Source: Parahalioglobus pacificus (GTDB lineage Bacteria; Pseudomonadota; Gammaproteobacteria; Pseudomonadales; Halieaceae). Taken from it: a stretch of 64,000 nt of DNA. Below the pieces are notes generated by a model. The model ran no database searches and was not told the origin of the DNA. It worked only from the letters and a program-made list of their open reading frames with translations. Position 1 is the stretch's first letter. Every line of letters begins with the position of its first letter. The DNA lies in contig NZ_BMYM01000001.1 in assembly GCF_014652275.1 (NCBI RefSeq), positions 1,426,001-1,490,000 of the forward strand. The letters are read 5' to 3'. Below are positions 11,344-49,158 of the stretch, piece by piece. Made by a program: the position numbers and the translations under genes.

Positions 11344-11700
11344 CTACAGCTCGTAGCTGACGCCCACGGTTTGCGTGCAGGAGCGGCTCTCTACAAAGCT
11401 TTGCAGGCGGGCATTTACGAGACGCTGATTATCCTCGGAGATACCGAACATCAGTCCATCGAAGTAGCCCAGCGCCTTGGCATAGATCACATCGCCGTCC
11501 TGATCAGCGTAGCTGTCCAAAACATCGCCCACCATTGTGTTGTACTGGTCCTCATTGAGATAGCCCAGCGAGTCCTGCGCCAACACACAGGTCAGCTGCC
11601 GCGCGGCGGCGAATTCGTCGGGACCCAGCGCCAACGCCTTGGCACTGAGCGAACCCAGTGCCAGAGACAGCAAAACCACTATTTGGAATACAGATTTCAT
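11344..11700 (-). CDS. Small secreted protein of unknown function behind a Pho-box-like promoter
   Basis: A 118-residue protein with a clear Sec signal peptide (KSVFQIVVLLSLALGSLSAKALA, cleavage near residue 24). The mature part of about 94 residues is acidic, predicted helical, and has two Cys (LTCVL and RSCTQ) that could form one disulfide in the periplasm. I do not recognise a family. It is monocistronic: it has its own terminator and an upstream array of PhoB-box-like repeats 46 nt before the start codon, so I infer induction under phosphate limitation. Confidence 0.75.
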   Translation of the reverse strand: MKSVFQIVVLLSLALGSLSAKALALGPDEFAAARQLTCVLAQDSLGYLNEDQYNTMVGDVLDSYADQDGDVIYAKALGYFDGLMFGISEDNQRLVNARLQSFVESRSCTQTVGVSYEL

Positions 11701-11730: not shown

Positions 11731-11785
11731 AAGATAGCCCATGACGGTGACAGTAATATGACAACGACATGACGTTTTATGACAG
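11731..11785 (-). promoter_or_regulatory. Pho-box-like repeat array and -10 element for the small secreted protein gene
   Basis: Read on the minus strand there are four 7-mers: CTGTCAT (11785-11779), ACGTCAT (11775-11769), TTGTCAT (11764-11758) and CTGTCAC (11753-11747). The spacers are 3, 4 and 4 nt. The last two form a near-consensus PhoB box (consensus CTGTCAT, 4 AT-rich nt, CTGTCAC). Ten nt downstream is TATCTT (11736-11731), a 4/6 -10 element. This is the geometry of PhoB-dependent promoters, in which the box replaces the -35. Confidence 0.65.
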
Positions 11786-20582: not shown

Positions 20583-20609
20583 AAAAAAAAACCGCGCCCA
20601 AGGACGCGG
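20583..20609 (-). terminator. Rho-independent terminator of the TonB receptor-lipoprotein operon
   Basis: In minus-strand RNA a 7-bp stem including one G-U pair (20592-20598 with 20603-20609) closes a 4-nt loop, followed by nine Ts (20583-20591). It lies 32 nt after the lipoprotein stop. Confidence 0.85.
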
Positions 20610-20640
20610 CTAATCTTACAAGAACAGGGTTTTTTTTGAA

Positions 20641-23487
20641 TCAGTCCAGGGAGCCCGGAACAATCCAGCCAGCCCACCAGGCATCTTCGGGGCTTGTGCC
20701 CGGCTCAACGGCACCGATGAAGTCGGTATCGTCGAACTCAAAGCCAGAGCCGTTATCGACGGCAATGATGCCCGGTGCCATTACCGATGCTTCCGCGTCC
20801 GTGATCGCATAAGCCGCGTCCAGAGTCACGCCGGTGTTGGTGTCTTCGCCGGCGTTGTCTGCACTATCGGCGGCACGGCGGCTGTAGAAACCGTCCATAC
20901 ACTCACCCAGCACGTTAACCAGACCCACGGTGGAAGGCACGATGGTCGAACCGTCACCGTTGATATCTGCATCGTCGATGCGCACACAACCATTATCGAA
21001 CTCTTTGACCGCCGTGTTGTAGATGGTGGTGGTCAGGGCACCGCGCAGACGCATGCCTGGCTGTGCACCCGCATCAGAGTCGGGGTTGTTGCTCACATCG
21101 CTACCGATCAGCAGGATATTGGCAAGTACCGCTTCGGTCTCGGGCACGTACTCATCGTCAGACGAGTTCGCCTCGATGCCGCGCGGGTCGTTAGAACCAG
21201 TGGGGCCAGGCTTGTTGGGGTTCTTACGCACAATGGCGTACTGGATGTTGCCCTTGAAGCCTTCGTCGAAGTCGATGTCGTCATCGTCGTTGTTGGTCAG
21301 AACGGCGTAGCGCACGTTCACAGTACCGCCGAACCACTCGATGCCATCATCCAGGTTACCGTGAACCTGCACGTACTCGATGGTGGTGCCATGACCCACA
21401 CCCTGCAGGGTGAGACCATTCACTTCGTTATTGGGACCAGCCACCAGGCCACCCTCGGCGATAACCATATAGCGGATCTCACCGCTGTCGTCCGCGGGGT
21501 CATTACCGCCGTAATTGCCCACGAAGGTACCACCCTCACCGATAACGTTACATACGGTGCCAGAGCCAAAGCAGGGTCCAGTGCCGCCGGCACCGAACTG
21601 GGGTGCAAAGCCCTGAACGAGCACTCCGCCCCACTCACCTTCGCCGTCCAGATCGTCGTCGAGGCTTGAGAACACGATTGGGCTGGCTGCAGAGCCAATG
21701 GCATTTAGCTTGGAGCCGCGAGTAACGATCAGCGAACCGTCGTCGAAGGCCTTAACCTGAACACCAGCACGGATAGTCAGGGTAACGCCCGCATCCTTGA
21801 TAGCTTGCACGTCGGCGTCACCTGCGACTTCACGGTTACCGTCACCGACCACCACGTCACCAGACAGGCGCCATTCGATACCAGAGATCAGCGTGTAATC
21901 CTGGTCGATAGTGCCGGAGAGGGTGCACACCTCGTTGCCGGCATCGCAGCTTACGAAGTCAGCGGGCTCAACTTCTTCTGACTCGCCCACGGTGTCTGGC
22001 AGAGTCCAGCCTTCCCACCAGCCGCTGGAGGCAGCAGGATCAACCGCACCGACGTAGGCAGTCTGGTCGAACATGAAGCCCGAGCCATTGTTGACTGCAT
22101 TGATCACGGGTGCAGAGTCGAGAACAGCTTCGGACTCGTTGATCGCCAGTGTGTTGCTGTAAGTCAGGGTCAGCAGTTCTACATTGTCTTCAACGTCGGC
22201 ATCACGCTTGTTGTAGATACCGTCTCGACAGTCATTGAGAACGTTGATCAGAGACACATTGGAGGGGATGATGACACTGCCGTCGCCGTTCACGTCGGCA
22301 TCATCAATGCGGTGACAGCCTTCGTTGAACTCGGCTACAGACGAGTTGAAGATGCTCACCGTAACCGCACCACGAAGGCGAGTACCCGGCTGTGGACCGG
22401 CATCAGAGTCTTCGTTGTTGTTCAGGTCACTACCAATGATTGTCACGTTGGCAATGACTGCTTCAGTCTCAGGCACGTACTCGTCGTCTGAAGAGTTCGC
22501 CTCAATCGCGCGAGGGTCGTTAGAGCCGGTAGGTGCGTCCTTGTCCTTGGCCTTCTCAACAATCGCGTACTGAATGTTGCCCTGGTAACCCTCATCGAAA
22601 TCGATGTCGTCATCGTCGTTACCGGTCAGTACCAGGTAGCGCGCGTCCACCGTACCGCCGAACCACTCGACACCGTCGTCCAGGTTGTTGTGGACCTGAA
22701 CGTATTCAACGGTAGTGCCATGGCCGACGCCCTGCAGCGTGAGGCCATTCACTTCGTTGTTGGGTCCAGCTACCAGACCGCCTTCGGCGATGCGGACGTA
22801 GCGGACTGTACCGCTGTTGTCGTCAGGCTCATTACCACCGTAGTTACCCACGAAGGTTCCGCCCTCACCGATAACGTTACAGACAGTGCCCTCGCCAAAA
22901 CAGGCGCCTGTGCCGCCTGGACCGAACTGGGGTGCGAAACCTTGTACAAGCACCCCGCCCCACTCGCCGAGACCGTCGAAACCGTCGTCCAGCGAGCTGA
23001 AGGTAATCGGTGCCGCTGCCGTACCGTTGGCTTCAAGTCGCGAGCCGCGAGTGATGATCAGGGAGCCGTCATCGAACGCTTTGATATCCGCGCCCGCTTC
23101 GACTTCCAGCACCACGCCTGCGTCCTTAACTGCCTGGACATCGGCGTCATCCAGCACTTCGCGGTTACCGTCACCGACAACCACGTCGCCGGACAGGCGC
23201 CACTCAACGCCCGCTCCGAGTCGGTAATCTTCAAGTACGGAGCCTGACAGCGTGCCGACTGAACAGTCGTCATTGAACTCGACAAAGTCAGCCTCCACAA
23301 CGGAATCGCAGTCTCCGTCGCCGTCTCCGTCGCCGTCGCCGTCGCCATCACCGTCTCCATCACCGTCTCCGTCGCCGTCTCCACCTGGTGGTGGTACGAC
23401 GATAGTTACGTCGTCACCCTCATCTCCCGAACAACCCACAAGGGTCGTAAAGACAAGGAGGAACGCTATCAATAGCTCTTTCTTCAT
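20641..23487 (-). CDS. Large lipoprotein with two tandem beta-helix-like repeats and a Gly-Asp linker
   Basis: A 948-residue lipoprotein. The signal peptide ends in TTLVGC (Cys19 lipidated; next residue Ser, so outer membrane). A linker of 12 Gly-Asp dipeptides follows. Two copies of a module of about 430 residues come next, roughly 65-510 and 515-948, sharing many identical strings (RLSGDVVVGDGNREV, AFDDGSLI, LEWGGVLVQGFAPQF-like, NEVNGLTLQGVGHGTT, NSSDDEYVPETEAV). Recurring short strands ending in Gly or Asn suggest a right-handed parallel beta-helix. I know such lipoproteins as companions of TonB receptors but not their function. Co-transcribed with the receptor gene 83 nt upstream and hence behind its Pho-box array; a surface partner in substrate capture is plausible. 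Confidence 0.85.
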   Translation of the reverse strand: MKKELLIAFLLVFTTLVGCSGDEGDDVTIVVPPPGGDGDGDGDGDGDGDGDGDGDGDGDCDSVVEADFVEFNDDCSVGTLSGSVLEDYRLGAGVEWRLSGDVVVGDGNREVLDDADVQAVKDAGVVLEVEAGADIKAFDDGSLIITRGSRLEANGTAAAPITFSSLDDGFDGLGEWGGVLVQGFAPQFGPGGTGACFGEGTVCNVIGEGGTFVGNYGGNEPDDNSGTVRYVRIAEGGLVAGPNNEVNGLTLQGVGHGTTVEYVQVHNNLDDGVEWFGGTVDARYLVLTGNDDDDIDFDEGYQGNIQYAIVEKAKDKDAPTGSNDPRAIEANSSDDEYVPETEAVIANVTIIGSDLNNNEDSDAGPQPGTRLRGAVTVSIFNSSVAEFNEGCHRIDDADVNGDGSVIIPSNVSLINVLNDCRDGIYNKRDADVEDNVELLTLTYSNTLAINESEAVLDSAPVINAVNNGSGFMFDQTAYVGAVDPAASSGWWEGWTLPDTVGESEEVEPADFVSCDAGNEVCTLSGTIDQDYTLISGIEWRLSGDVVVGDGNREVAGDADVQAIKDAGVTLTIRAGVQVKAFDDGSLIVTRGSKLNAIGSAASPIVFSSLDDDLDGEGEWGGVLVQGFAPQFGAGGTGPCFGSGTVCNVIGEGGTFVGNYGGNDPADDSGEIRYMVIAEGGLVAGPNNEVNGLTLQGVGHGTTIEYVQVHGNLDDGIEWFGGTVNVRYAVLTNNDDDDIDFDEGFKGNIQYAIVRKNPNKPGPTGSNDPRGIEANSSDDEYVPETEAVLANILLIGSDVSNNPDSDAGAQPGMRLRGALTTTIYNTAVKEFDNGCVRIDDADINGDGSTIVPSTVGLVNVLGECMDGFYSRRAADSADNAGEDTNTGVTLDAAYAITDAEASVMAPGIIAVDNGSGFEFDDTDFIGAVEPGTSPEDAWWAGWIVPGSLD
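23311..23382 (-). repeat. Hexanucleotide repeat coding for (Gly-Asp)12
   Basis: Twelve consecutive 6-nt units encode Gly-Asp. Units alternate among GGAGAC, GGCGAC and GGTGAT (minus strand), so the peptide is exactly repeated while the DNA is not. Confidence 0.9.
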
Positions 23488-23570: not shown

Positions 23571-26500
23571 CTAGAAAAACTGGTAGGTCAGACCCACCTG
23601 AAACGTGGTTCCTGTCTCGAAACTCTCGATGGTGTTGCCGTTCTGCACAAACTCGAACTCATCGTTCAGCAGATTGTTAATCTGCGCACTCAAAGTGAGT
23701 GCTTCGCCAAACATCTTCGAGTAGGTGATGTCGACAATGATCCGGCCGGACTCAATCTCCGGTCCATTCTGCGTACCACGCGCCACACGGAAGATGCGAT
23801 CGTCGAAATAGTTCACCAGCAAGGTCACTTTCTGCTCGGTGGGATAGTGATCGAAACCCAGCTGAACATTTGCCAGCCACTCCGACTGCCCCTGCAGCAC
23901 ACGTCCGTTGGCGGACTCACCCTCGAGACGGATCGAATCTTCCGAGAGCTCCACTTCCGAGTCGATGTAAGACACGTTACCGCCTAGGAACAGCAGGTAC
24001 TCGTCTTCATCGAGCAGGTTCTTGGTGGCATCCAGTTCAATACCGAACAGATCGGCAGAATCCTGGTTGCGGAAGGTGATACCGCGCGCCGCTGAACCCG
24101 ATGCATCCGGAATCGCACGCTCGATAGGCTGATCAATTTCCTTGGCAAAAACTGCCAGAGAAATGCTCTCGGTATCAGAGAAGTAGTACTCGAGACGCGC
24201 GTCCAGGTTTTCAATGGTTGAGACCTGCAGGTTCGGGTTACCGAAAATCGGGTCGTCGGTGAACGGGTCGAAGGAAATCGACTCGGAACGCTCAATCAGG
24301 CCGGGGTAGGAGGCCGTTTCGCTGTAACCGACTCGGAACTGCCAATCGTCCAACGGACGCCAGGTCGCGCTGATCGCCGGGTACCAGTCATCGAAATTCA
24401 GCTCGTTGGATGAATCCGGCTCATTCGGGTAGTCCAGCGTCTGGCTGAAGTCCTCGAAGCGAGCACCGATGCCAAAGAACCAGGCGTCGCCTAAATCAGT
24501 GTTGGCATTCAGGTAATAGGCCTGAATCTCCTCTGTTGAATCGTAAGAATCAGTCTGGGTGGTATTGGCCGCCAGACGGAAGCGGTCCACGACAAAGTTC
24601 TGGTACGACAGGATCTCTTCAAGGTCTTGGTCGATGCCCAGGTCCACGTCTCGGAAATCGCCCTGACGTATGCCGAAACGGTACTGTTCGACGGTACGGT
24701 CTTTGTCGGACCAAAGGAGGCCAGCCTGCAGTTCCGTGGTGTTGTAGTCACCCCAGTCGATCGGCAGCTTATAGTCGAAGCCAAGGTCGATGCTGTCTTC
24801 AACCAGGTCTGACCAGCGCCGCTCAAAGGCCGAGGTCGACAGGTTATTGTTGAAGTAACTGTACTGGCGACGATCCGGCTCGTATCGGTCTGTACGAGAG
24901 TACGCGGCGCGCCAGTCGAATATATGCAAGCCGATATCGGACTCAAGCTCATTATGACCGGTAAACGCCTGGGAGAAGAATTGGCGCTCTACGTATTCGA
25001 GGATCGCGCTGGTGATTGCGTTGCCCTCCCGCCCATCGATGCCCGATTCGAGACGGGTTACATCGTCGGTAGCGCGGAGAATGCTGGTTTTGCTAAGAAC
25101 CTCGTCGGCCAGGCCGTATTCAAGACCAGTCACAAAGTAACCATTCAGGGCCACAGTTTCGCGGGTCCGGCGATACTCACCCTGTGTCTCGAGGGGGTTA
25201 CTCAACTCAGCATCACCACGATCATCGGTCTCGCGGCTGTAGTTGAGTGCGCCGTAGTAGCCCCACTCATTGTCGCCGGCAGGCAGGCGATCACCGTAGG
25301 CCCACCCCGCACTAACGTCTGGCAGGGCCTGCTTGTCACGAACGTTGTAATCATCCTGGAACTGCACAGCCAGCGCCGCGGCATCCAGCTGTGACGTACA
25401 GCGCTCAGGGTCAATCGCGGGATCACAGATTGTCAGTGACTGACCGCCGTCGGTGGCATTCACAACACGGTTGGGTAGGTCGCGTAAACCGTTGTCAAAG
25501 CCCAGCCACTCGGTCTCGCTGGAGCGATGCGCCAAGACGTCATCGCCCGTGAAATCGAAGTTATACGCGAGGTCGCCGGAGACCTGGTTGATCTTCTCGT
25601 CGGGGAGGCCCTTGGTATTGATCTTGATGGAGCCGCCCGTGGTCGTTGCCAGCTGATCGGGCGTGTAGGACTTCTGGATTTCGATGCCGCCCAGAATATT
25701 GGTCGGGAACAGGTCCAACTGCACGTCGCGGCGCTGCGGGTCGGTACTGGGCATCAACAGGCCGTTCAGTGTTGCCGAGATATACCGTCCGTCCAGACCG
25801 CGTACGGTGGCGTACTTACTGTCTGTTACCGATACACCTGCCACACGCACCAGGGCTGAGGCGACATCGCTGTCGCCGAAGCGCTGCAGCTGTTCGATAT
25901 CAATCGCGTTGGTGATGGAGGTCGCGAAGCGCTCAATGCCCTCTGAGGTGTCGGTTGGGTTGAATACGCCGAGAACAACAACCTCTTCCAATTGCGTGGA
26001 TGGCAGCTGTACCGCCACAGCGTCACTCTCAGCGGCGTACATAGTGACGCCAGCCGTAACGCCGGTGTCGGCAAGCACGCGCACATTGGGAATGTCGACT
26101 GACCGGTAGTCCGGTGCAACTACACGCACATCGTAGGCGCCGCGCGGAAGCTCCAGCACGTAAACGCCATCGCTATCAGTGGCTGTGCTTGCATCGACGC
26201 CCTCGGCAATGATGTTGGCGCCGACCACGGGGGCGCCCACGGTATTTTTCACCGTGCCGGTAATAAACCCTGTCGCTGCAACGTCACCTACCGCAAAGCG
26301 TTTTACGCTGACGACAGGCTCATCACCTGTGCTCGCTGTGAAAGTGACAACAATCTCCACGTCCTCATCGGCGCCGGAACTGAAAGCAACAGGGAAGGTC
26401 AGGTCATCGTCCGACAAACCCAACACGTGCTCGCCGGCAGTCAGCGGTGCTGAGATGCGGCCATTGCCATCAGTTTCGCCGATGGGTGTGTCGTCCAGGG

Positions 26501-26621
26501 TCACCGTGACTCCGCGCAGGGGGGCCTCGTCCAGGAAAACCATAAGGTATGCATCGGCGGCAATAGCGCGGGATGCAGTAAAGAGCAGCAGTAGTCCTAG
26601 CGTAACTGCGATTTTCTTCAT
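23571..26621 (-). CDS. TonB-dependent receptor with N-terminal carboxypeptidase-regulatory-like domains
   Basis: A 1016-residue outer-membrane receptor. Signal peptide about 1-21 (KKIAVTLGLLLLFTASRAIA); two Ig-like/carboxypeptidase-regulatory-like domains, about 22-100 and 115-200 (FITGTVKNTVGAPVVGANI); a TonB-box-like LEEVVVLG; a plug (VRVAGVSVTDSKYATVRGLDGRY, TPDQLATTTGGSIKI); and a barrel ending in YQFF. Substrate unknown. The ATG at 26619-26621 is chosen over the upstream-extended frame because it places the signal peptide at the N-terminus. It is first gene of an operon with the duplicated lipoprotein and lies downstream of a four-repeat Pho-box array, so I infer PhoB control and possibly a role in acquiring a phosphorus-containing nutrient. 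Confidence 0.9.
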   Translation of the reverse strand: MKKIAVTLGLLLLFTASRAIAADAYLMVFLDEAPLRGVTVTLDDTPIGETDGNGRISAPLTAGEHVLGLSDDDLTFPVAFSSGADEDVEIVVTFTASTGDEPVVSVKRFAVGDVAATGFITGTVKNTVGAPVVGANIIAEGVDASTATDSDGVYVLELPRGAYDVRVVAPDYRSVDIPNVRVLADTGVTAGVTMYAAESDAVAVQLPSTQLEEVVVLGVFNPTDTSEGIERFATSITNAIDIEQLQRFGDSDVASALVRVAGVSVTDSKYATVRGLDGRYISATLNGLLMPSTDPQRRDVQLDLFPTNILGGIEIQKSYTPDQLATTTGGSIKINTKGLPDEKINQVSGDLAYNFDFTGDDVLAHRSSETEWLGFDNGLRDLPNRVVNATDGGQSLTICDPAIDPERCTSQLDAAALAVQFQDDYNVRDKQALPDVSAGWAYGDRLPAGDNEWGYYGALNYSRETDDRGDAELSNPLETQGEYRRTRETVALNGYFVTGLEYGLADEVLSKTSILRATDDVTRLESGIDGREGNAITSAILEYVERQFFSQAFTGHNELESDIGLHIFDWRAAYSRTDRYEPDRRQYSYFNNNLSTSAFERRWSDLVEDSIDLGFDYKLPIDWGDYNTTELQAGLLWSDKDRTVEQYRFGIRQGDFRDVDLGIDQDLEEILSYQNFVVDRFRLAANTTQTDSYDSTEEIQAYYLNANTDLGDAWFFGIGARFEDFSQTLDYPNEPDSSNELNFDDWYPAISATWRPLDDWQFRVGYSETASYPGLIERSESISFDPFTDDPIFGNPNLQVSTIENLDARLEYYFSDTESISLAVFAKEIDQPIERAIPDASGSAARGITFRNQDSADLFGIELDATKNLLDEDEYLLFLGGNVSYIDSEVELSEDSIRLEGESANGRVLQGQSEWLANVQLGFDHYPTEQKVTLLVNYFDDRIFRVARGTQNGPEIESGRIIVDITYSKMFGEALTLSAQINNLLNDEFEFVQNGNTIESFETGTTFQVGLTYQFF

Positions 26622-26719: not shown

Positions 26720-26775
26720 ATCCTATGAGGCGGAAGTGACAGAAATGTGATTGAAATGTGTCAGTTGTGTGACAA
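26720..26775 (-). promoter_or_regulatory. Four-repeat Pho-box array with -10 element
   Basis: Read on the minus strand four 7-mers recur with exact 11-nt period: TTGTCAC (26775-26769), CTGACAC (26764-26758), CAATCAC (26753-26747) and CTGTCAC (26742-26736), separated by AT-rich 4-nt spacers. The PhoB consensus is CTGTCAT/CTGTCAC with a 4-nt spacer. Ten nt downstream of the last repeat is TAGGAT (26725-26720), a 4/6 match to a -10. The array lies 115 nt upstream of the receptor's start codon. Confidence 0.75.
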
Positions 26776-26891: not shown

Positions 26892-27920
26892 CTAGGGTCT
26901 TAGACTTTTACTCACGAAGCGATTTCGATAGTCGGTGGGGGTACTCCCCGCCCAGCGCCTGAAAGCACGTGTGAAAACCGTGGGGTCGCGATAGCCCAGG
27001 CTTTCGCTGATGTCAGCCACGGAGTGCTTCCCCTCCCTTAGCAGGGCCTCGGCACGCAATTGCCGCAGCTGATCCAGCTCGGTCTTCAACGAGGTACCCA
27101 TATCGCTAAGGCGCCGTACCAAGGTTCGTTTGCTAATGCCGCACAGCTCCGCGACATGGTCCGCATCGAGGCCAGGCTCATGCAGGTGTTTTTCCAACAC
27201 GTAACGCAGGGCTGCCAAGGTGTCGGAAGGTGCCCGATTGCGGGCGAAAATCCGTGCGTCGTCTGCCGCGCTGGCACGGAGCTGCGGCGCCAGCAGCAGC
27301 CATGTGCTGGGGAACGACACACTGAAACCGCTGGTATTCGCGCCAGCCACCCTGATGTCCCAATGCCCTGGGGGAAATACCTCGGGGTCACACACTTGCA
27401 CGAGCACGTTATGCCCCGCCCAATTGCCGCCCATCGCCTGCCGCAAAATAGACAGAATGTACGCAGCGCCGAAACCGTCGTTGTGACGCGGCAGCCTGCC
27501 GCCATCAGTGACGCGCCTTTCGGTAAAGATGGTTCTGCTACCCCGGGTTTCCAGCTTGAATTCCACTGAATTCGCATCGCGGTAGGCGTCAATGGAGAAG
27601 CGCAGCAGTAGATCACCCACCGATTGTGCCTGCCGCGCTGCATCGGCCATCGGCGACCATTCAAACGGGTTCAAGGAAGTACCCAGGTTCACACCGCAGT
27701 GCGGATCTCCCGTGAGCTCGGCCAGAGTCTCCACCAGGTCGTACATCACGGCGGCGGTCACGAACTGTTCCTGGTCTCCAAAGCTGGCCTCCGACAGGCA
27801 ATAGGGTTCGAGGCTTGCCTGTACACGCTTACCACTGCGAAGCGCCGCATCAAGAAAGGGCTGCGCAAGAGCGAGACGCACCATGGGCAGTTGCAATTTT
27901 TCCCGCGCCTGTGACGCCAT
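26892..27920 (-). CDS. AraC family transcriptional regulator (OruR/arabinose-binding-domain type)
   Basis: A 342-residue regulator. The N-terminal 220 or so residues match the Arabinose_bd-like domain of the OruR/ArgR branch of AraC proteins (FGDQEQFVTAAVMYDLVETLAELTGDPHCGVNLG). The C-terminal 100 residues hold two helix-turn-helix motifs (ADHVAELCGISKRTLVRRL and SVADISESLGYRDPTVFTRAF) ending in the family signature FRRWAGSTPTDYR. It is divergently transcribed from the amidohydrolase-porin pair across 161 nt and is a good candidate for their regulator. The effector is unknown. No strong ribosome binding site precedes its ATG. Confidence 0.9.
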   Translation of the reverse strand: MASQAREKLQLPMVRLALAQPFLDAALRSGKRVQASLEPYCLSEASFGDQEQFVTAAVMYDLVETLAELTGDPHCGVNLGTSLNPFEWSPMADAARQAQSVGDLLLRFSIDAYRDANSVEFKLETRGSRTIFTERRVTDGGRLPRHNDGFGAAYILSILRQAMGGNWAGHNVLVQVCDPEVFPPGHWDIRVAGANTSGFSVSFPSTWLLLAPQLRASAADDARIFARNRAPSDTLAALRYVLEKHLHEPGLDADHVAELCGISKRTLVRRLSDMGTSLKTELDQLRQLRAEALLREGKHSVADISESLGYRDPTVFTRAFRRWAGSTPTDYRNRFVSKSLRP

Positions 27921-30713: not shown

Positions 30714-32540
30714 TTACTGGAGCGAAAATACGCCATCGTTCAATAGCGCATCAATTTTGAGAAAGGCATCCACCGCGTGCTGGGTGGAATCGACACGCAC
30801 ACGATTGTTTGCGACGCTCACCCGCAACGCGCCCTCCACACAGTCTCGGCAAGGCACGAAGTACATACGCTCGCCGCGATACTGCAAGTTGTCGAGATTG
30901 GATAACGCCATACGCAGTGCATCCGAATACAAGCTAACACGCAGGTCGTCGCCCTGCTGGTGGGCTGTGTGCAACGCGTGCGCCACCCCCTCCATATACA
31001 CCGCGTCGGAGCTTGCGTGCGGGCTGCCATACTGGGGTGTTTCCGGATTGTAAAAGCGGCCCCGATACTGCGGATGAGATGCACCCGAGTCCAATAGCTC
31101 CAGCAACTTATCGGTGAGCGTGAAAACAGCCGCCGGATACCGTTCATCACCAGTCAATGCATAGAGCGCACGCAGCGATTGCACATGCCAGGGCACATAG
31201 GCCGGGTAATAGTTTTCTTCCAGGTCATCCACATAGCGCTGCAGATACACATCCTGCAAAGCCACCGTCCTGGCCAGTACTGGCGCATCATCCGCTCGCT
31301 GTGCGTACTCCGCCAGCGCCAGCAGCGCCTCACCACTGTAAAACGTGAGTAAGCGCTGCTCATCGAAAGCGTAGTCCGGTTCTATATACCAGGCCCGAAA
31401 CCCTTGTCTGCCCGCATCCAGAGAAAGAATACCGTTCACTAATGCGCGCGCCTGCTCGGCATACTCTTCATAGAAGGGGCTGTACACCAACGTGCGCAGC
31501 GCCATGGCCATCGCCCCCAATTTGGACTTGTCCCGAAAGACGATGTAGCCCTCGCCGTTCGACTCCCAGTACCAGTGGGTGAACATGTAGTTCAGATTGT
31601 CGCGGTGGGCCGCGAGCAGCGCCGGTTGCTCACTCGCGAGCTCCGCCAGCGTTCGTGAGGCCATCAACTGCCTGAGCACATTGTCGCGGGATGCAGGCCA
31701 TCGATCGCGTGCAGGCAAGTAGAGATACCTGAAGTCGCCCGATGGCTTTTGAGACGCGAGCAGCCACTGCTGTGCCCGGTTGCCTAACGCCCTGTAGTCG
31801 TCATGATTGACGACCGCATCGGCAGAGAAAGTGTTGCCCATGGCGTACTTGACCACCTCAGAGCCCGCCCCCGAAAAGTGGTCGACCCGGTAGTAGTAAC
31901 GGCTGATAGCCGATTCCGTGCTACCGGCACTAATCAGCGATCCGTCGATCACTTGCAGTAGTTTCTCCTCGCTGAGGTTGGCCTCCACCGCATAAGCACC
32001 GTAGTAGTTAGCCGTGGCCTCGGCCATCACACTGAGCCCATGCAGGCCGTGGATATAGCCACCGCCGGTCATAGGCCTGTCTCTACCCATCACGTGCAAA
32101 TGGATATCAAGCTCATCCGCTGTCGCTGCCCTACTCAACTGCGTCGTATCCGCAAGCCTGGCGGCTTTTTCTGCGGCGCTCAAAACGTTTTGAGTAAGGC
32201 TTTTCCCATGCGCCCAGGCTGACGCAATTCGCTGCCTCTGATGCCAGGCCACTACGTAGACACGATGCTCCGCATCGGCGAGCACCGGCTGAATCGCCGC
32301 ATCGCTTTGGCCGGTCCCAGTCATTGCGTCCAGTAGAGATGCCCGCGCGAGCGCCAACAATTGTTGCCTCTGTGTATCAGACAATCGCGGCAACTCATGT
32401 GCGGGCCCCGCAAAGGGGCTGGGCGTTGATGTCACAGAAGTCTGCCCCCAGGGCAGGGACAGTTGACCTGACACCGCCAGAACCACCAGCGAAAGCAATC
32501 CCGCATAGATAAGCACGCGTAGCACGCTGGCTTTGGTCAT
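30714..32540 (-). CDS. Membrane-anchored or secreted protein with an alpha/alpha-toroid-like C-terminal domain
   Basis: A 608-residue protein that I cannot assign to a characterised family. The start at ATG 32538-32540 gives an N-terminal anchor/signal (VLRVLIYAGLLSLVVLAVSGQL), so it acts in the periplasm. Residues about 55-170 weakly resemble an AMMECR1-like domain (ending TADELDIHLHVMG). From about 200 on, helical pairs with Trp/Tyr-rich loops (TFYSGEALLALAEYAQR, PAYVPWHVQSLRALYALTG, ASSDAVYMEGVAHALHTAH) suggest a six-hairpin toroid as in glycoside hydrolases, epimerases or terpene-cyclase-like proteins. It is divergent from the SutA-like/OlsF/PlcP genes, with which it may share regulation. 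Confidence 0.7.
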   Translation of the reverse strand: MTKASVLRVLIYAGLLSLVVLAVSGQLSLPWGQTSVTSTPSPFAGPAHELPRLSDTQRQQLLALARASLLDAMTGTGQSDAAIQPVLADAEHRVYVVAWHQRQRIASAWAHGKSLTQNVLSAAEKAARLADTTQLSRAATADELDIHLHVMGRDRPMTGGGYIHGLHGLSVMAEATANYYGAYAVEANLSEEKLLQVIDGSLISAGSTESAISRYYYRVDHFSGAGSEVVKYAMGNTFSADAVVNHDDYRALGNRAQQWLLASQKPSGDFRYLYLPARDRWPASRDNVLRQLMASRTLAELASEQPALLAAHRDNLNYMFTHWYWESNGEGYIVFRDKSKLGAMAMALRTLVYSPFYEEYAEQARALVNGILSLDAGRQGFRAWYIEPDYAFDEQRLLTFYSGEALLALAEYAQRADDAPVLARTVALQDVYLQRYVDDLEENYYPAYVPWHVQSLRALYALTGDERYPAAVFTLTDKLLELLDSGASHPQYRGRFYNPETPQYGSPHASSDAVYMEGVAHALHTAHQQGDDLRVSLYSDALRMALSNLDNLQYRGERMYFVPCRDCVEGALRVSVANNRVRVDSTQHAVDAFLKIDALLNDGVFSLQ

Positions 32541-32551
32541 AAATCTTTCAC
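32534..32551 (+). promoter_or_regulatory. Degenerate Pho-box-like sequence before the SutA-like/OlsF/PlcP genes
   Basis: TGGTCAT (32534-32540) and CTTTCAC (32545-32551) are separated by AAAT and match the PhoB consensus at 11 of 14 repeat positions. It overlaps the divergent gene's start codon, and the -10 region at the expected distance (TTTCTC) is poor. Confidence 0.25.
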
Positions 32552-32621
32552 CGTAGTGTCGTTTCTCTGCAATCAGCAGCACGCATGCTGCCGCCAATCT
32601 CTTGGTACGGAGCTAATTGAG

Positions 32622-32816
32622 ATGCCTAATCATATCGACTCTGTTGTGGATGTGGCGAAGAAAAAAATGCGCGAGGAAATCGATCAACAGGTCGAACTAT
32701 TCCTAAAGAGAGGTGGCCGAATCGATGTCCTATTGCCACCAGAACCTGCGGCCCGCCATGAGCGGGGTTCTGTCTGGCACAGTCCGAACGAATTCGCGGA
32801 CGTGCGGGACGACTAG
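32622..32816 (+). CDS. Small SutA-like protein
   Basis: A 64-residue charged protein: an amphipathic helix (VDVAKKKMREEIDQQVELFL) followed by KRGGRIDVLLPPEPAARHERGS. The second half resembles the C-terminal part of Pseudomonas SutA, an RNA polymerase-binding factor of slow-growing cells, as I remember it (FLSRGGKVQEIEPN). The acidic N-terminal half of SutA is missing, so this could be a separate family sharing that motif. ATG 32622 has GGAG 9 nt upstream. It precedes the OlsF-like gene by 9 nt and is likely co-transcribed with it. Confidence 0.55.
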   Translation: MPNHIDSVVDVAKKKMREEIDQQVELFLKRGGRIDVLLPPEPAARHERGSVWHSPNEFADVRDD

Positions 32817-32825
32817 GGCAACCCA

Positions 32826-34568
32826 ATGTTTGACGTCAAAGAGATAATCCAAACACGGTTCCCAGCATTCTCACAGCGTCATGCCCGCACCGCACGCATC
32901 CTTTCAAGATTTCTATCACTACTGTTTTACGAAACACGTTTCCAGCAATTCGAGCGCAACTACCCTCATTTGGAGGGCTTAGACTTTGTTGAGCAAACAC
33001 TGCGTTACTTCGACTTCAGACTGCGCGTGCGCGAGGACGAGCGCGCACGAATTCCTGCGACAGGTCGCGTTGTAATCGCAGCGAATCACCCCATTGGCTC
33101 ACTGGACGGTCTGTCTTTGCTGCACCTGGTGCGTCAGGTCAGGGCTGACGTGAAAGTCGTTGCGAACGAATTGCTGTCTGAGGTGAAGCCTTTACACCCA
33201 CTGCTGCTGCCAGTGAACAACATGGGCGGGCAGACAGCGCGTAACAACCTCAAAAACATCAAAGCGCACCTGGAGTCAGAGGGTGCGCTGATTATCTTCC
33301 CTGCCGGTGAGGTATCACGTCTGGGGTCCAAGGGCGTCAAGGACGGTGAGTGGCACAGCGGATTTGTGAAGATGGCTCGCACCGCGGGCGCACCGATTCT
33401 TCCCGTTTATGTTGCCGGACGTAACTCGCTATTTTTCTATAGCCTGTCTGCGCTTGCTAAGCCACTTTCCACACTCTGGCTTATTCGGGAGATGTTCAAG
33501 CAGAGCCATAACACCATCGATGCGCGAATAGGCAGACCCGTTACGCAAGAAATCTACGATGCTAACCAGTTCTCTGCGAAGCAACTTGCTCGGATGTTCC
33601 GCAAACATGTGTACCGCATGGCGCGGGATGGCAAGCCAATTTTCCGCTCTGTTGATACTGTCGCCGCGCCCGAGAACAGGCAACTCCTCAATCGGGAACT
33701 GCTTGCCAGCGAACGCTTGGGACAAACTCGGGACGGCAAACATATCTACCTGTGCAGAATGGGCAGTGCCCCATGCGTGATGCGTGAAATTGGTCGCTTG
33801 CGAGAAATTGCTTTTCGCAGCGTAGGCGAAGGTTCAGGGCTGCCCAGGGATATCGACCGATATGATGCCACCTACCTGCAACTGGTGTTGTGGGACAGTG
33901 AGGCCCTGGAGATCGCCGGTGCCTATCGCATCGGTGATGCCAAACAAATTATCGCACGGCAGGGGCTCGACGGGCTGTATACGCAGTCGCTTTTCCGTTT
34001 TGGCGAGAGCACAGTGCCTTATCTTGAACATGGCCTGGAGCTGGGACGCAGTTTTGTGCAACCCCGGTACCAGAACAAGAACAGCCTTGACTACCTCTGG
34101 TATGGAATCGGTGCCTACCTTGGCAAATACCCCCATTATCGCTATTTGTATGGGCCAGCCTCGATCAGCCGCTACTATGGTAGGGAAGGCATTGCCATGC
34201 TGGCCCACTACTTCTCCGGCTATTACAACAGTCTCCCCGTGGATGTGTCAGCCCGAGATCCGTTCGTCGTCGACGCAGAACTCAGCGAAAAGCTGGCGCG
34301 GACGTTCTCCGGTGAACATCGGGAGCAGGACTTCAAAACCTTGAAGCGCGCGCTCAAAGAACGCGGGCTACCTGTTCCACCGTTGTATAAACATTATTCT
34401 CAGGCGACAGATACCGACGGCGTTACTTTCACGGCTTTCAATATTGATCGTGATTTCGGTGATTGTGTGGACGGATTTGTAATCGCAGACCTGGAACGTC
34501 TCACTGAAAAAAAACGGCAACGCTATCTCTCAGGGGAGGATAACGACAATGGAGGCAATACGGACTGA
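32826..34568 (+). CDS. olsF: OlsF-like bifunctional ornithine lipid synthase (fused acyltransferases)
   Basis: A 580-residue cytosolic or membrane-associated protein with two acyltransferase domains. Residues about 80-260 are PlsC-like: AANHPIGSLDG (the NHPxGxxD form of the catalytic motif), LIIFPAGEVSRLGSKGVKDG and ILPVYVAGRNS. Residues about 310-500 are a GNAT-like domain of the OlsB/COG3176 type: MREIGRLREIAFRSVGEG, YDATYLQLVLWD, GLELGRSFVQPRYQ and LYGPASISRYYG. This order and length fit OlsF, in which the C-terminal half N-acylates ornithine with a 3-hydroxyacyl group and the N-terminal half O-acylates the product. Ornithine lipids are phosphorus-free. The 3' end overlaps the PlcP-like gene by 20 nt. 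Confidence 0.78.
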   Translation: MFDVKEIIQTRFPAFSQRHARTARILSRFLSLLFYETRFQQFERNYPHLEGLDFVEQTLRYFDFRLRVREDERARIPATGRVVIAANHPIGSLDGLSLLHLVRQVRADVKVVANELLSEVKPLHPLLLPVNNMGGQTARNNLKNIKAHLESEGALIIFPAGEVSRLGSKGVKDGEWHSGFVKMARTAGAPILPVYVAGRNSLFFYSLSALAKPLSTLWLIREMFKQSHNTIDARIGRPVTQEIYDANQFSAKQLARMFRKHVYRMARDGKPIFRSVDTVAAPENRQLLNRELLASERLGQTRDGKHIYLCRMGSAPCVMREIGRLREIAFRSVGEGSGLPRDIDRYDATYLQLVLWDSEALEIAGAYRIGDAKQIIARQGLDGLYTQSLFRFGESTVPYLEHGLELGRSFVQPRYQNKNSLDYLWYGIGAYLGKYPHYRYLYGPASISRYYGREGIAMLAHYFSGYYNSLPVDVSARDPFVVDAELSEKLARTFSGEHREQDFKTLKRALKERGLPVPPLYKHYSQATDTDGVTFTAFNIDRDFGDCVDGFVIADLERLTEKKRQRYLSGEDNDNGGNTD

Positions 34569-35346
34569 CGGTAAGATTAGCTGCCGTACTTTATGGATTT
34601 CAGACGTACACCTGGGCAGTGTACACAGCAAAGCAGAAAGCCTGCTGCAGTTGCTCAAGCGCGTGGAATGCGAGCGCTTGTATCTGGTCGGCGACATCGT
34701 CGATGTGTGGGCGATGCACAAACGTGTCTATTGGCCTGAGGCGCACAATCGGGTACTGCGACAAATACTAAAAATGTCCAAACGTCAGGTGGACGTTATT
34801 TACATCCCGGGCAATCACGACCAAAACTTCCGCGAGTTCTGCGGCAGCGAATTCGGCAACATCACCATACACAAACAGGTGGAGCACAAGACGCTTGCTG
34901 GCAAGCGTATGCTGGTGATGCACGGTGATGAATTCGATTATGCCGTTCGCTACTCACGCCTGAATCGCTGGATCGGCGACATTGGCTACGATCTACTGAT
35001 GTGGTTCAACCGGTATATCAATCGCGCCCGAGAAGCACTGGGTAAACCCTATTGGTCTCTGGCCAAATGGGTAAAGGTCAATATTTCACAGGCTGGCGAT
35101 GCCATACTGGCCTACCAGCGGGCAGCTGCCCACTTTGCCCGCGACAACCGCTTTGACGGAATCATCTGTGGTCACCTGCACTATCCTGTTATCAGCGAGA
35201 TCGACGGGGTGACGTACTGCAACGACGGCGACTGGGTCGAGAATTGCACCGCTTTGGTTGAAGATTGGGAGGGTGCTCTGCACCTGGTGAAAGGGTTACC
35301 CGTTATGGAAGATAGTTCGGAACTGGTGCTGGCGAAGGCGCAATAA
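34549..35346 (+). CDS. PlcP-like metallophosphoesterase (COG2908)
   Basis: A 265-residue calcineurin-like phosphoesterase: SDVHLG (metal ligands), YLVGDIVDVW, PGNHDQNF, MHGDEFD and CGHLHYPV supply the two-metal site. Automatic annotation would say LpxH, but GKPYWSLAKWVKVNISQAGD, WPEAHNRV and CNDGDWVENCTALVEDWEG are features I associate with PlcP. PlcP is the phospholipase C that removes head groups from membrane phospholipids during phosphate starvation in marine bacteria and rhizobia; this family call is from memory. Its start (ATG 34549, after GGGGAGG) lies inside the olsF-like gene, a 20-nt overlap implying coupled translation. The pair could replace phospholipid with ornithine lipid. Confidence 0.75.
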   Translation: MEAIRTDGKISCRTLWISDVHLGSVHSKAESLLQLLKRVECERLYLVGDIVDVWAMHKRVYWPEAHNRVLRQILKMSKRQVDVIYIPGNHDQNFREFCGSEFGNITIHKQVEHKTLAGKRMLVMHGDEFDYAVRYSRLNRWIGDIGYDLLMWFNRYINRAREALGKPYWSLAKWVKVNISQAGDAILAYQRAAAHFARDNRFDGIICGHLHYPVISEIDGVTYCNDGDWVENCTALVEDWEGALHLVKGLPVMEDSSELVLAKAQ

Positions 35347-48742: not shown

Positions 48743-48954
48743 AGCACAGAGCGCTGAGAACAAAACGTTGTTGGCGACTTCGCTCCCCGTTTGCTTTTAT
48801 TAGAGAGCGTGTCTCAGACACCCCCGAGGTGCCGCTGCGCCTGTAAGGGCCGGCACTGCCTTACAAACACACTGATTTCGGTATCGCAGCCGCGCGTTGC
48901 GCGAGGGCGCTGTCGGCGGCAAAGCCGGTACCCGAGCCCCAGGAGGCAATCTCT

Positions 48955-49158
48955 ATGAAAAGACAGAAACGTGACATGTACACCCGGGCATTCGATCGCG
49001 GCTACAAGGCCGGCGTATCGGGCCGAAGTAGCGAGTTCTGCCCCCATGTCAGTGATCAATCCCGCCAAGCCTGGCTGTCCGGCTGGCGCGAGGGTCGCAG
49101 CGATCAATGGGATGGGCTGACTGGCATTTCCGGTGTACACAAAATGCGCACGTTCTGA
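48955..49158 (+). CDS. rmf: Ribosome modulation factor
   Basis: A 67-residue basic protein that starts MKRQKRDMYTRAFDRGYKAG and continues GRSSEFCPH and WLSGWREGRSDQ, closely following E. coli RMF (MKRQKRD, GYQAG, GRSKEMCPY, WLGGWREA). RMF dimerises 70S ribosomes into inactive 100S particles in slow growth and stationary phase. It carries about a dozen extra C-terminal residues compared with the 55-residue E. coli protein. It has a strong AGGAGG ribosome binding site and a hairpin after its stop, so it is monocistronic. Confidence 0.95.
   Translation: MKRQKRDMYTRAFDRGYKAGVSGRSSEFCPHVSDQSRQAWLSGWREGRSDQWDGLTGISGVHKMRTF

Follow-up and report, generated by a model that had tools for sequence, protein, structure and literature searches.

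Which regulator controls the TonB receptor and lipoprotein genes in this window, by which we mean the whole 64-kb stretch of DNA that was analysed, and what do the two proteins do for the cell? The first-pass annotation had placed four 7-mers with an 11-nt period, followed at 10 nt by the hexamer TAGGAT, in front of a TonB receptor gene and a duplicated lipoprotein gene, and had assigned both to the phosphate-starvation regulon. Direct reading of the sequence bears out the four repeats, their period and the position of the hexamer. The features of the locus are as follows:

26769..26775, minus strand: Pho half-box 1, TTGTCAC (sequence score 8.0)
26758..26764, minus strand: Pho half-box 2, CTGACAC (sequence score 6.6)
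26747..26753, minus strand: Pho half-box 3, CAATCAC, the weakest (sequence score 3.7)
26736..26742, minus strand: Pho half-box 4, proximal, CTGTCAC (sequence score 9.5)
26720..26725, minus strand: -10 hexamer TAGGAT, exactly 10 nt past box 4, no -35 hexamer
23571..26621, minus strand: TonB-dependent receptor, 1016 aa, with signal peptide, CarboxypepD_reg, Plug and barrel domains (PF13620, PF07715, PF00593)
20641..23487, minus strand: lipoprotein, 948 aa, ElpS-type, with lipobox LVGC and two beta-helix domains
20590..20611, minus strand: intrinsic terminator directly past the lipoprotein stop codon, closing the two-gene operon

The promoter and the two genes

On the minus strand, the receptor promoter reads 5' to 3' TTGTCAC acaa CTGACAC attt CAATCAC attt CTGTCAC ttccgcctca TAGGAT, with an exact 11-nt period in the array (26775-26736) and a spacer of exactly 10 nt to TAGGAT. 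A search of the region before the receptor gene for a sigma-70 promoter with -35 and -10 hexamers found none. PhoB-dependent promoters of Escherichia coli consist of CTGTCAY half-sites with an 11-nt period and a -10 element about 10 nt downstream, without a -35 element, and four half-sites fall inside the range known for Pho boxes. The region 26720-26775 combines CTGTCAT-like direct repeats, period, -10 spacing and absence of a -35 element in the same way as the Escherichia coli sites, and differs from these only in gene content. The longest open reading frame called for the receptor (start 26786) runs through the array. Nevertheless, the array lies upstream of the gene, because the true start is the ATG at 26621, 98 nt from the end of the -10 hexamer: translation from this codon opens with a signal peptide, as it does in the orthologues.

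For scoring, we used a half-box matrix derived from the textbook consensus, which was fixed once the window site was known, but ahead of the reading of any orthologue. The four-box score of the array is 28.3. In 60 simulated windows of 64 kb with matching dinucleotide composition, this score averaged 13.9 (sd 2.2) and never exceeded 19.9. The combined score of box pair and -10 element in the receptor upstream region was significant as well (p = 0.003 against 300 shuffles). Elsewhere in the window, a lone two-box site (48944-48977, minus strand; score 14.8) has no clear gene downstream and is probably a chance match.

The receptor is a TonB-dependent receptor by its plug and barrel, which follow the signal peptide. 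Its partner carries the lipobox at residues 16-19, and both lipobox and signal peptide are kept in the orthologues. The earlier description of a duplicated lipoprotein holds if it is taken to mean a single polypeptide, the two halves of which are 68% identical over 448 residues. With 18% Asp+Glu against 4% Lys+Arg, the protein is very acidic, and it contains about a dozen invariant Asp, Glu and Asn residues, many of them within the motifs DDGxEWFGG and NDDDxIDxDxG. We found no sequence relative in Pfam, NCBIfam or the PDB; the closest named relatives come from Halieaceae, with 74% identity to the protein of Parahaliea mediterranea. The model of the second half is a parallel beta-helix (mean pLDDT 88.7). 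A fold search against the PDB returned general beta-helix matches only (best E = 1.5e-3), namely chondroitinase B, pectate lyases and epimerases, which do not name a function.

Conservation of the array before orthologous operons

The first-pass annotation had proposed to score the array across related genomes and had named orthologous operons without it as the finding that would speak against Pho control. We performed this comparison. Relatives of the lipoprotein are encoded in 70 of 195 genomes of the same order. A first set comprised the window and 17 orthologous receptor-lipoprotein operons, and a site consisting of box pair and -10 element was significant in 17 of these 18 (p <= 0.027 each, against shuffles of the same DNA). 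The sole exception is a close orthologue (L073), which has no site. When period and spacer were varied in a 5x5 grid for this set, the combination of 11 and 10 nt gave the highest mean of all 25.

The second set was organism-named and scored with the same matrix; it contained 23 loci with the receptor gene first (class A) and 33 with the lipoprotein gene first (class B). Both classes scored above the promoters of neighbouring genes (class A, p = 6e-10; class B, p = 8e-10), and 33 of the 56 loci exceeded the 95th percentile of these promoters, with 2.8 expected. This control contains true Pho genes and is therefore conservative. An earlier null, drawn from slices of the ortholog loci, was discarded, since it contained true promoters.

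To look at the distal boxes, 46 promoters were aligned by their proximal box and -10 element alone. The mean half-box score has its maxima precisely 11, 22 and 33 nt further upstream, indicating that the four-repeat array itself is conserved. The promoter from Litorirhabdus (L097) matches the window array box for box, reading TTGTCAC acaa GTGACAC ctgc CAATAAC agta CTGTCAT, 10 nt, TAGCAT. A site of this geometry is absent from eight of nine alphaproteobacterial loci. It was likewise not found in the three loci scanned (L135, L140, L144) from a subfamily with very long lipoproteins. This subfamily (also including L085 and L137) encodes lipoproteins of 1100-1400 aa and closely related receptors, and may serve another purpose.

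The gene neighbourhoods point in the same direction as the promoters. Receptor and lipoprotein genes accompany each other at almost every locus, with either one first. Genes of the pho, pst or pit type are present in 23 of 99 loci and phoB in 11; by our own arithmetic for a single-copy gene, 15-kb stretches and genomes of about 4 Mb, well under one phoB would be expected. In SAR92/Porticoccaceae, pstA-pstB-phoU or pstB-phoU stands directly before the receptor gene: in four loci (L099, L100, L102, L103) the receptor and lipoprotein genes directly follow pst, and in three of these phoU intervenes. In Alteromonas marina, phoB-phoR-pstS precedes the lipoprotein and receptor genes. Near two lipoprotein loci we also observed porin genes with Pho-type sites of their own (L124:12536-13495, minus strand, site score 22.4; L152:13220-14191, minus strand, site score 21.7), which are candidate phosphate porins.

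Many relatives carry a cluster of DUF3450/ttpB2, exbB, exbD, tonB and TPR genes after the receptor-lipoprotein pair. At nine loci this TonB2-type cluster has its own Pho-type site, with scores of 13.7-21.0:

L095:8129, Pho-sited TonB2 cluster
L096:8542, Pho-sited TonB2 cluster
L105:8518, Pho-sited TonB2 cluster
L118:11215, Pho-sited TonB2 cluster
L128:11102, Pho-sited TonB2 cluster
L132:11333, Pho-sited TonB2 cluster
L136:11169, Pho-sited TonB2 cluster
L150:12494, Pho-sited TonB2 cluster
L151:12236, Pho-sited TonB2 cluster

The gene order is that of the TonB2 systems of Vibrio (ttpB2-ttpC2-exbB2-exbD2-tonB2-ttpD2), which are described for iron and siderophore uptake (PMC6957404), whereas the clusters of the relatives stand after receptor and lipoprotein genes and have Pho-type promoters. 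They may possibly represent a TonB system dedicated to phosphate starvation. The genome studied here has a TonB2-type cluster elsewhere, without a Pho-type site.

The probable regulator and its other putative targets in this genome

The genome encodes PhoB (333 bits, above the PhoB cut-off) and PhoR, as well as pstS-pstC-pstA-pstB-phoU in one run. The phoB promoter reads GTGTCAT-gttg-CTGTCAC-10 nt-TCTAAT (score 21.8), and a Pho-type site of the same geometry (score 18.6) precedes a Na/Pi cotransporter gene. Genome-wide statements rest on pattern scans. With up to three mismatches, the scan gave 22 matches, compared to 23 for the reversed pattern, and thus no excess. Therefore, single sites are credible only together with comparative evidence. 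Several matches inside genes were dropped, and a site near phoD (C1:333004) was rejected because it stands after and not before this gene.

Two further loci of the window carry Pho-type arrays:

11344..11700, minus strand: 118-aa exported helical protein, no Pfam family
11731..11785, minus strand: second Pho-type promoter, before the gene for the 118-aa protein (four-box score 25.1)
32826..34568, plus strand: bifunctional ornithine lipid synthase OlsF (NCBIfam equivalog NF052615, 782 bits)
32534..32589, plus strand: third, degenerate four-box array with CATGCT at 10 nt (four-box score 21.4)

The promoter of the 118-aa protein contains CTGTCAT (11785), ACGTCAT and TTGTCAT atta CTGTCAC, followed at 10 nt by TATCTT. 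The protein occurs in seven of the 195 genomes of the order sample, all within the family of the source organism, and its gene adjoins the receptor-lipoprotein operon in two of the seven. The four relatives whose promoters were examined have strong sites (22.1, 24.4, 25.3 and 29.0). Its AlphaFold model consists of four helices and the sequence has two conserved cysteines; a fold search gave no structural match. The 118-aa protein is a probable further component of the same phosphate-starvation response.

OlsF produces ornithine lipid, a membrane lipid free of phosphorus. The degenerate array lies 237 nt before its gene. Similar arrays are found at the same distance in three relatives, and OlsF is encoded beside the receptor in three relatives. 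This arrangement suggests phosphate-controlled lipid replacement. A calcineurin-type phosphoesterase is encoded after OlsF (in 32534-35346, plus strand).

Three other explanations of the array bear on its regulator. A chance resemblance would be in keeping with two-box single sites not being enriched genome-wide at three mismatches, but is contradicted by the shuffles, the simulated windows, the orthologous promoters and the peaks at 11, 22 and 33 nt, and we regard it as practically negligible. Control by the AraC-family gene just upstream (26892-27920), which adjoins the operon on the same strand, is very improbable: a relative of this gene is present at none of the 99 orthologous loci, whereas the Pho-type array recurs, and this neighbour was rejected as the regulator for lack of conservation. 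The repeats might also be bound by an OmpR-family regulator other than PhoB. Other members of this family use 11-nt direct repeats as well, and the genome encodes three further full-length OmpR-type regulators. But PhoB targets are characterised by this half-site, CTGTCAY, and by 10-nt spacing, and in this genome phoB and the gene for the Na/Pi cotransporter are preceded by the same site. We consider such a regulator very improbable. Binding of PhoB to the array and induction of the operon are highly probable in our judgement, and the reading as a whole, a class-II PhoB-dependent promoter of a surface uptake operon, is very probable. The membership in the phosphate-starvation regulon claimed in the first-pass annotation is supported by the orthologous promoters, by linkage to pho and pst genes, by the phoB and phoR genes of the genome and by the published induction of homologues.

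Known systems and a possible function of the pair

The published homologues come from other groups of bacteria. In Caulobacter crescentus, ElpS (CC_0170) is produced and surface-exposed only under phosphate starvation, its secretion accompanies extracellular phosphatase activity, and elpS, the receptor gene CC_0171 and type II secretion genes adjoin each other (PMC2996285). In Caulobacter, type II secretion and several TonB receptors form part of the PhoB regulon (PMC11208175). The lipoprotein of the window is 34-36% identical over 436-466 residues to two Phenylobacterium proteins (L161, L113). In this member of the Caulobacteraceae, the genes are arranged in the order lipoprotein-receptor-gspC-gspD (gspC and gspD by Pfam). 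Judged by homology and by gene order via Phenylobacterium, the lipoprotein belongs with ElpS. Both systems pair a lipoprotein, which in the case of ElpS is made under phosphate starvation, with an adjacent TonB receptor. They differ in that here the receptor gene comes first and the lipoprotein gene second under one Pho promoter for both, the lipoprotein is doubled and no type II secretion genes are adjacent. Moreover, the Caulobacter receptor is reported as not induced, being expressed in rich and poor medium alike (PMC2996285).

In Flavobacterium johnsoniae, the lipoproteins FI, FII and FIII show modest similarity to the Caulobacter protein, two of them adjoin TonB transporters, and all three are among the proteins most strongly induced by phosphate limitation (PMC8115612). 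The lipoprotein of the window probably belongs with them too, the relation being drawn through this literature description. Both systems (in Flavobacterium PUSIII and PUSIV; PMC8115612) combine a TonB transporter with a beta-helix-type lipoprotein, and those of Flavobacterium are induced only by phosphate depletion. However, Flavobacterium belongs to the Bacteroidota, and the neighbouring genes there encode proteases and sigma/FecR regulators. The SusCD-like PusCD of the same organism shares a TonB transporter, a surface lipoprotein and phosphate control (PMC8115612), but SusD is a different family: the lipoprotein described here has no SusD match in Pfam and is modelled as a beta-helix, and the pair is not of the SusCD/PusCD type.

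We propose that at low external phosphate PhoR would phosphorylate PhoB, dimers of which would bind the two 22-bp boxes formed by the four half-sites, stand in for the -35 element and bring RNA polymerase to TAGGAT, the -10 hexamer. Transcription of the two-gene operon would yield the outer-membrane TonB-dependent receptor and the ElpS-type surface lipoprotein with its two beta-helix domains. The acidic lipoprotein might then bind or trim a phosphorus-bearing ligand at the cell surface, which the receptor would import with TonB energy. The most likely job of the pair is outer-membrane uptake under phosphate starvation.

That the ligand itself contains phosphorus, as the first-pass annotation had suggested, is plausible; it is the simplest way to read the context, based on association, and somewhat more likely than its opposite. 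Alternatively, the operon could be induced by phosphate starvation while its receptor takes up something that is no phosphorus source but is required by the starved cell, such as iron or another metal, or a carbon glycan. The TonB subfamilies closest to the barrel are broad ones, among them receptors of the heme and Xanthomonas-Caulobacter types, the beta-helix model weakly resembles polysaccharide lyases and epimerases, and in Vibrio, TonB2 clusters with this layout function in the uptake of siderophores (PMC6957404). Such a ligand appears rather unlikely to us: in many lineages the genes are closely linked to pst, phoU and phoB, and the lipoprotein homologues of Caulobacter and Flavobacterium are associated with phosphatase activity or are tightly repressed when iron and nitrogen are limiting (PMC2996285, PMC8115612). 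It is also conceivable that the lipoprotein works as an enzyme at the surface, a hydrolase or lyase freeing phosphate or phosphorylated fragments, and not as the binding partner of the receptor. The parallel beta-helix fold is common to lyases and glycosidases, many of the invariant acidic and Asn residues lie in the two motifs given above, and ElpS secretion goes along with extracellular phosphatase activity (PMC2996285). But no enzyme family of Pfam or NCBIfam matches the protein, its best structural match is the weak one mentioned above, and the pairing of the two genes in nearly all loci fits a physical pair; we consider an enzymatic role possible, but not the favoured one. Uptake of a phosphorus-bearing ligand by the pair remains our preferred reading. 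More tentatively, the operon could supply the outer-membrane half of an import machine that is dedicated to phosphate starvation and occurs widely among marine Gammaproteobacteria. The receptor, the lipoprotein and, in many lineages, a separate TonB2-type energiser would all be switched on by PhoB, and the machine would import a phosphorus-bearing polymer or complex too large for porins ahead of its hydrolysis ('selfish' uptake).

We did not find Pho control of this operon in Gammaproteobacteria described in the open-access literature. The kind of system is already known; the cis evidence in Gammaproteobacteria and the promoter shared by receptor and lipoprotein are what we did not find described. 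The surface proteins with the strongest phosphate induction in Caulobacter and Flavobacterium include ElpS-type lipoproteins. The conserved Pho promoter common to receptor and lipoprotein across marine Gammaproteobacteria argues for one uptake system, and the pst and phoB genes and the putatively Pho-controlled TonB energiser often found alongside tie the pair further together. Since the array also precedes the corresponding genes of many marine bacteria, this bacterium probably obtains phosphorus with the pair when phosphate runs out, and the identity of the ligand can be addressed in genera that grow in culture, among them Alteromonas, Colwellia and Parahaliea.
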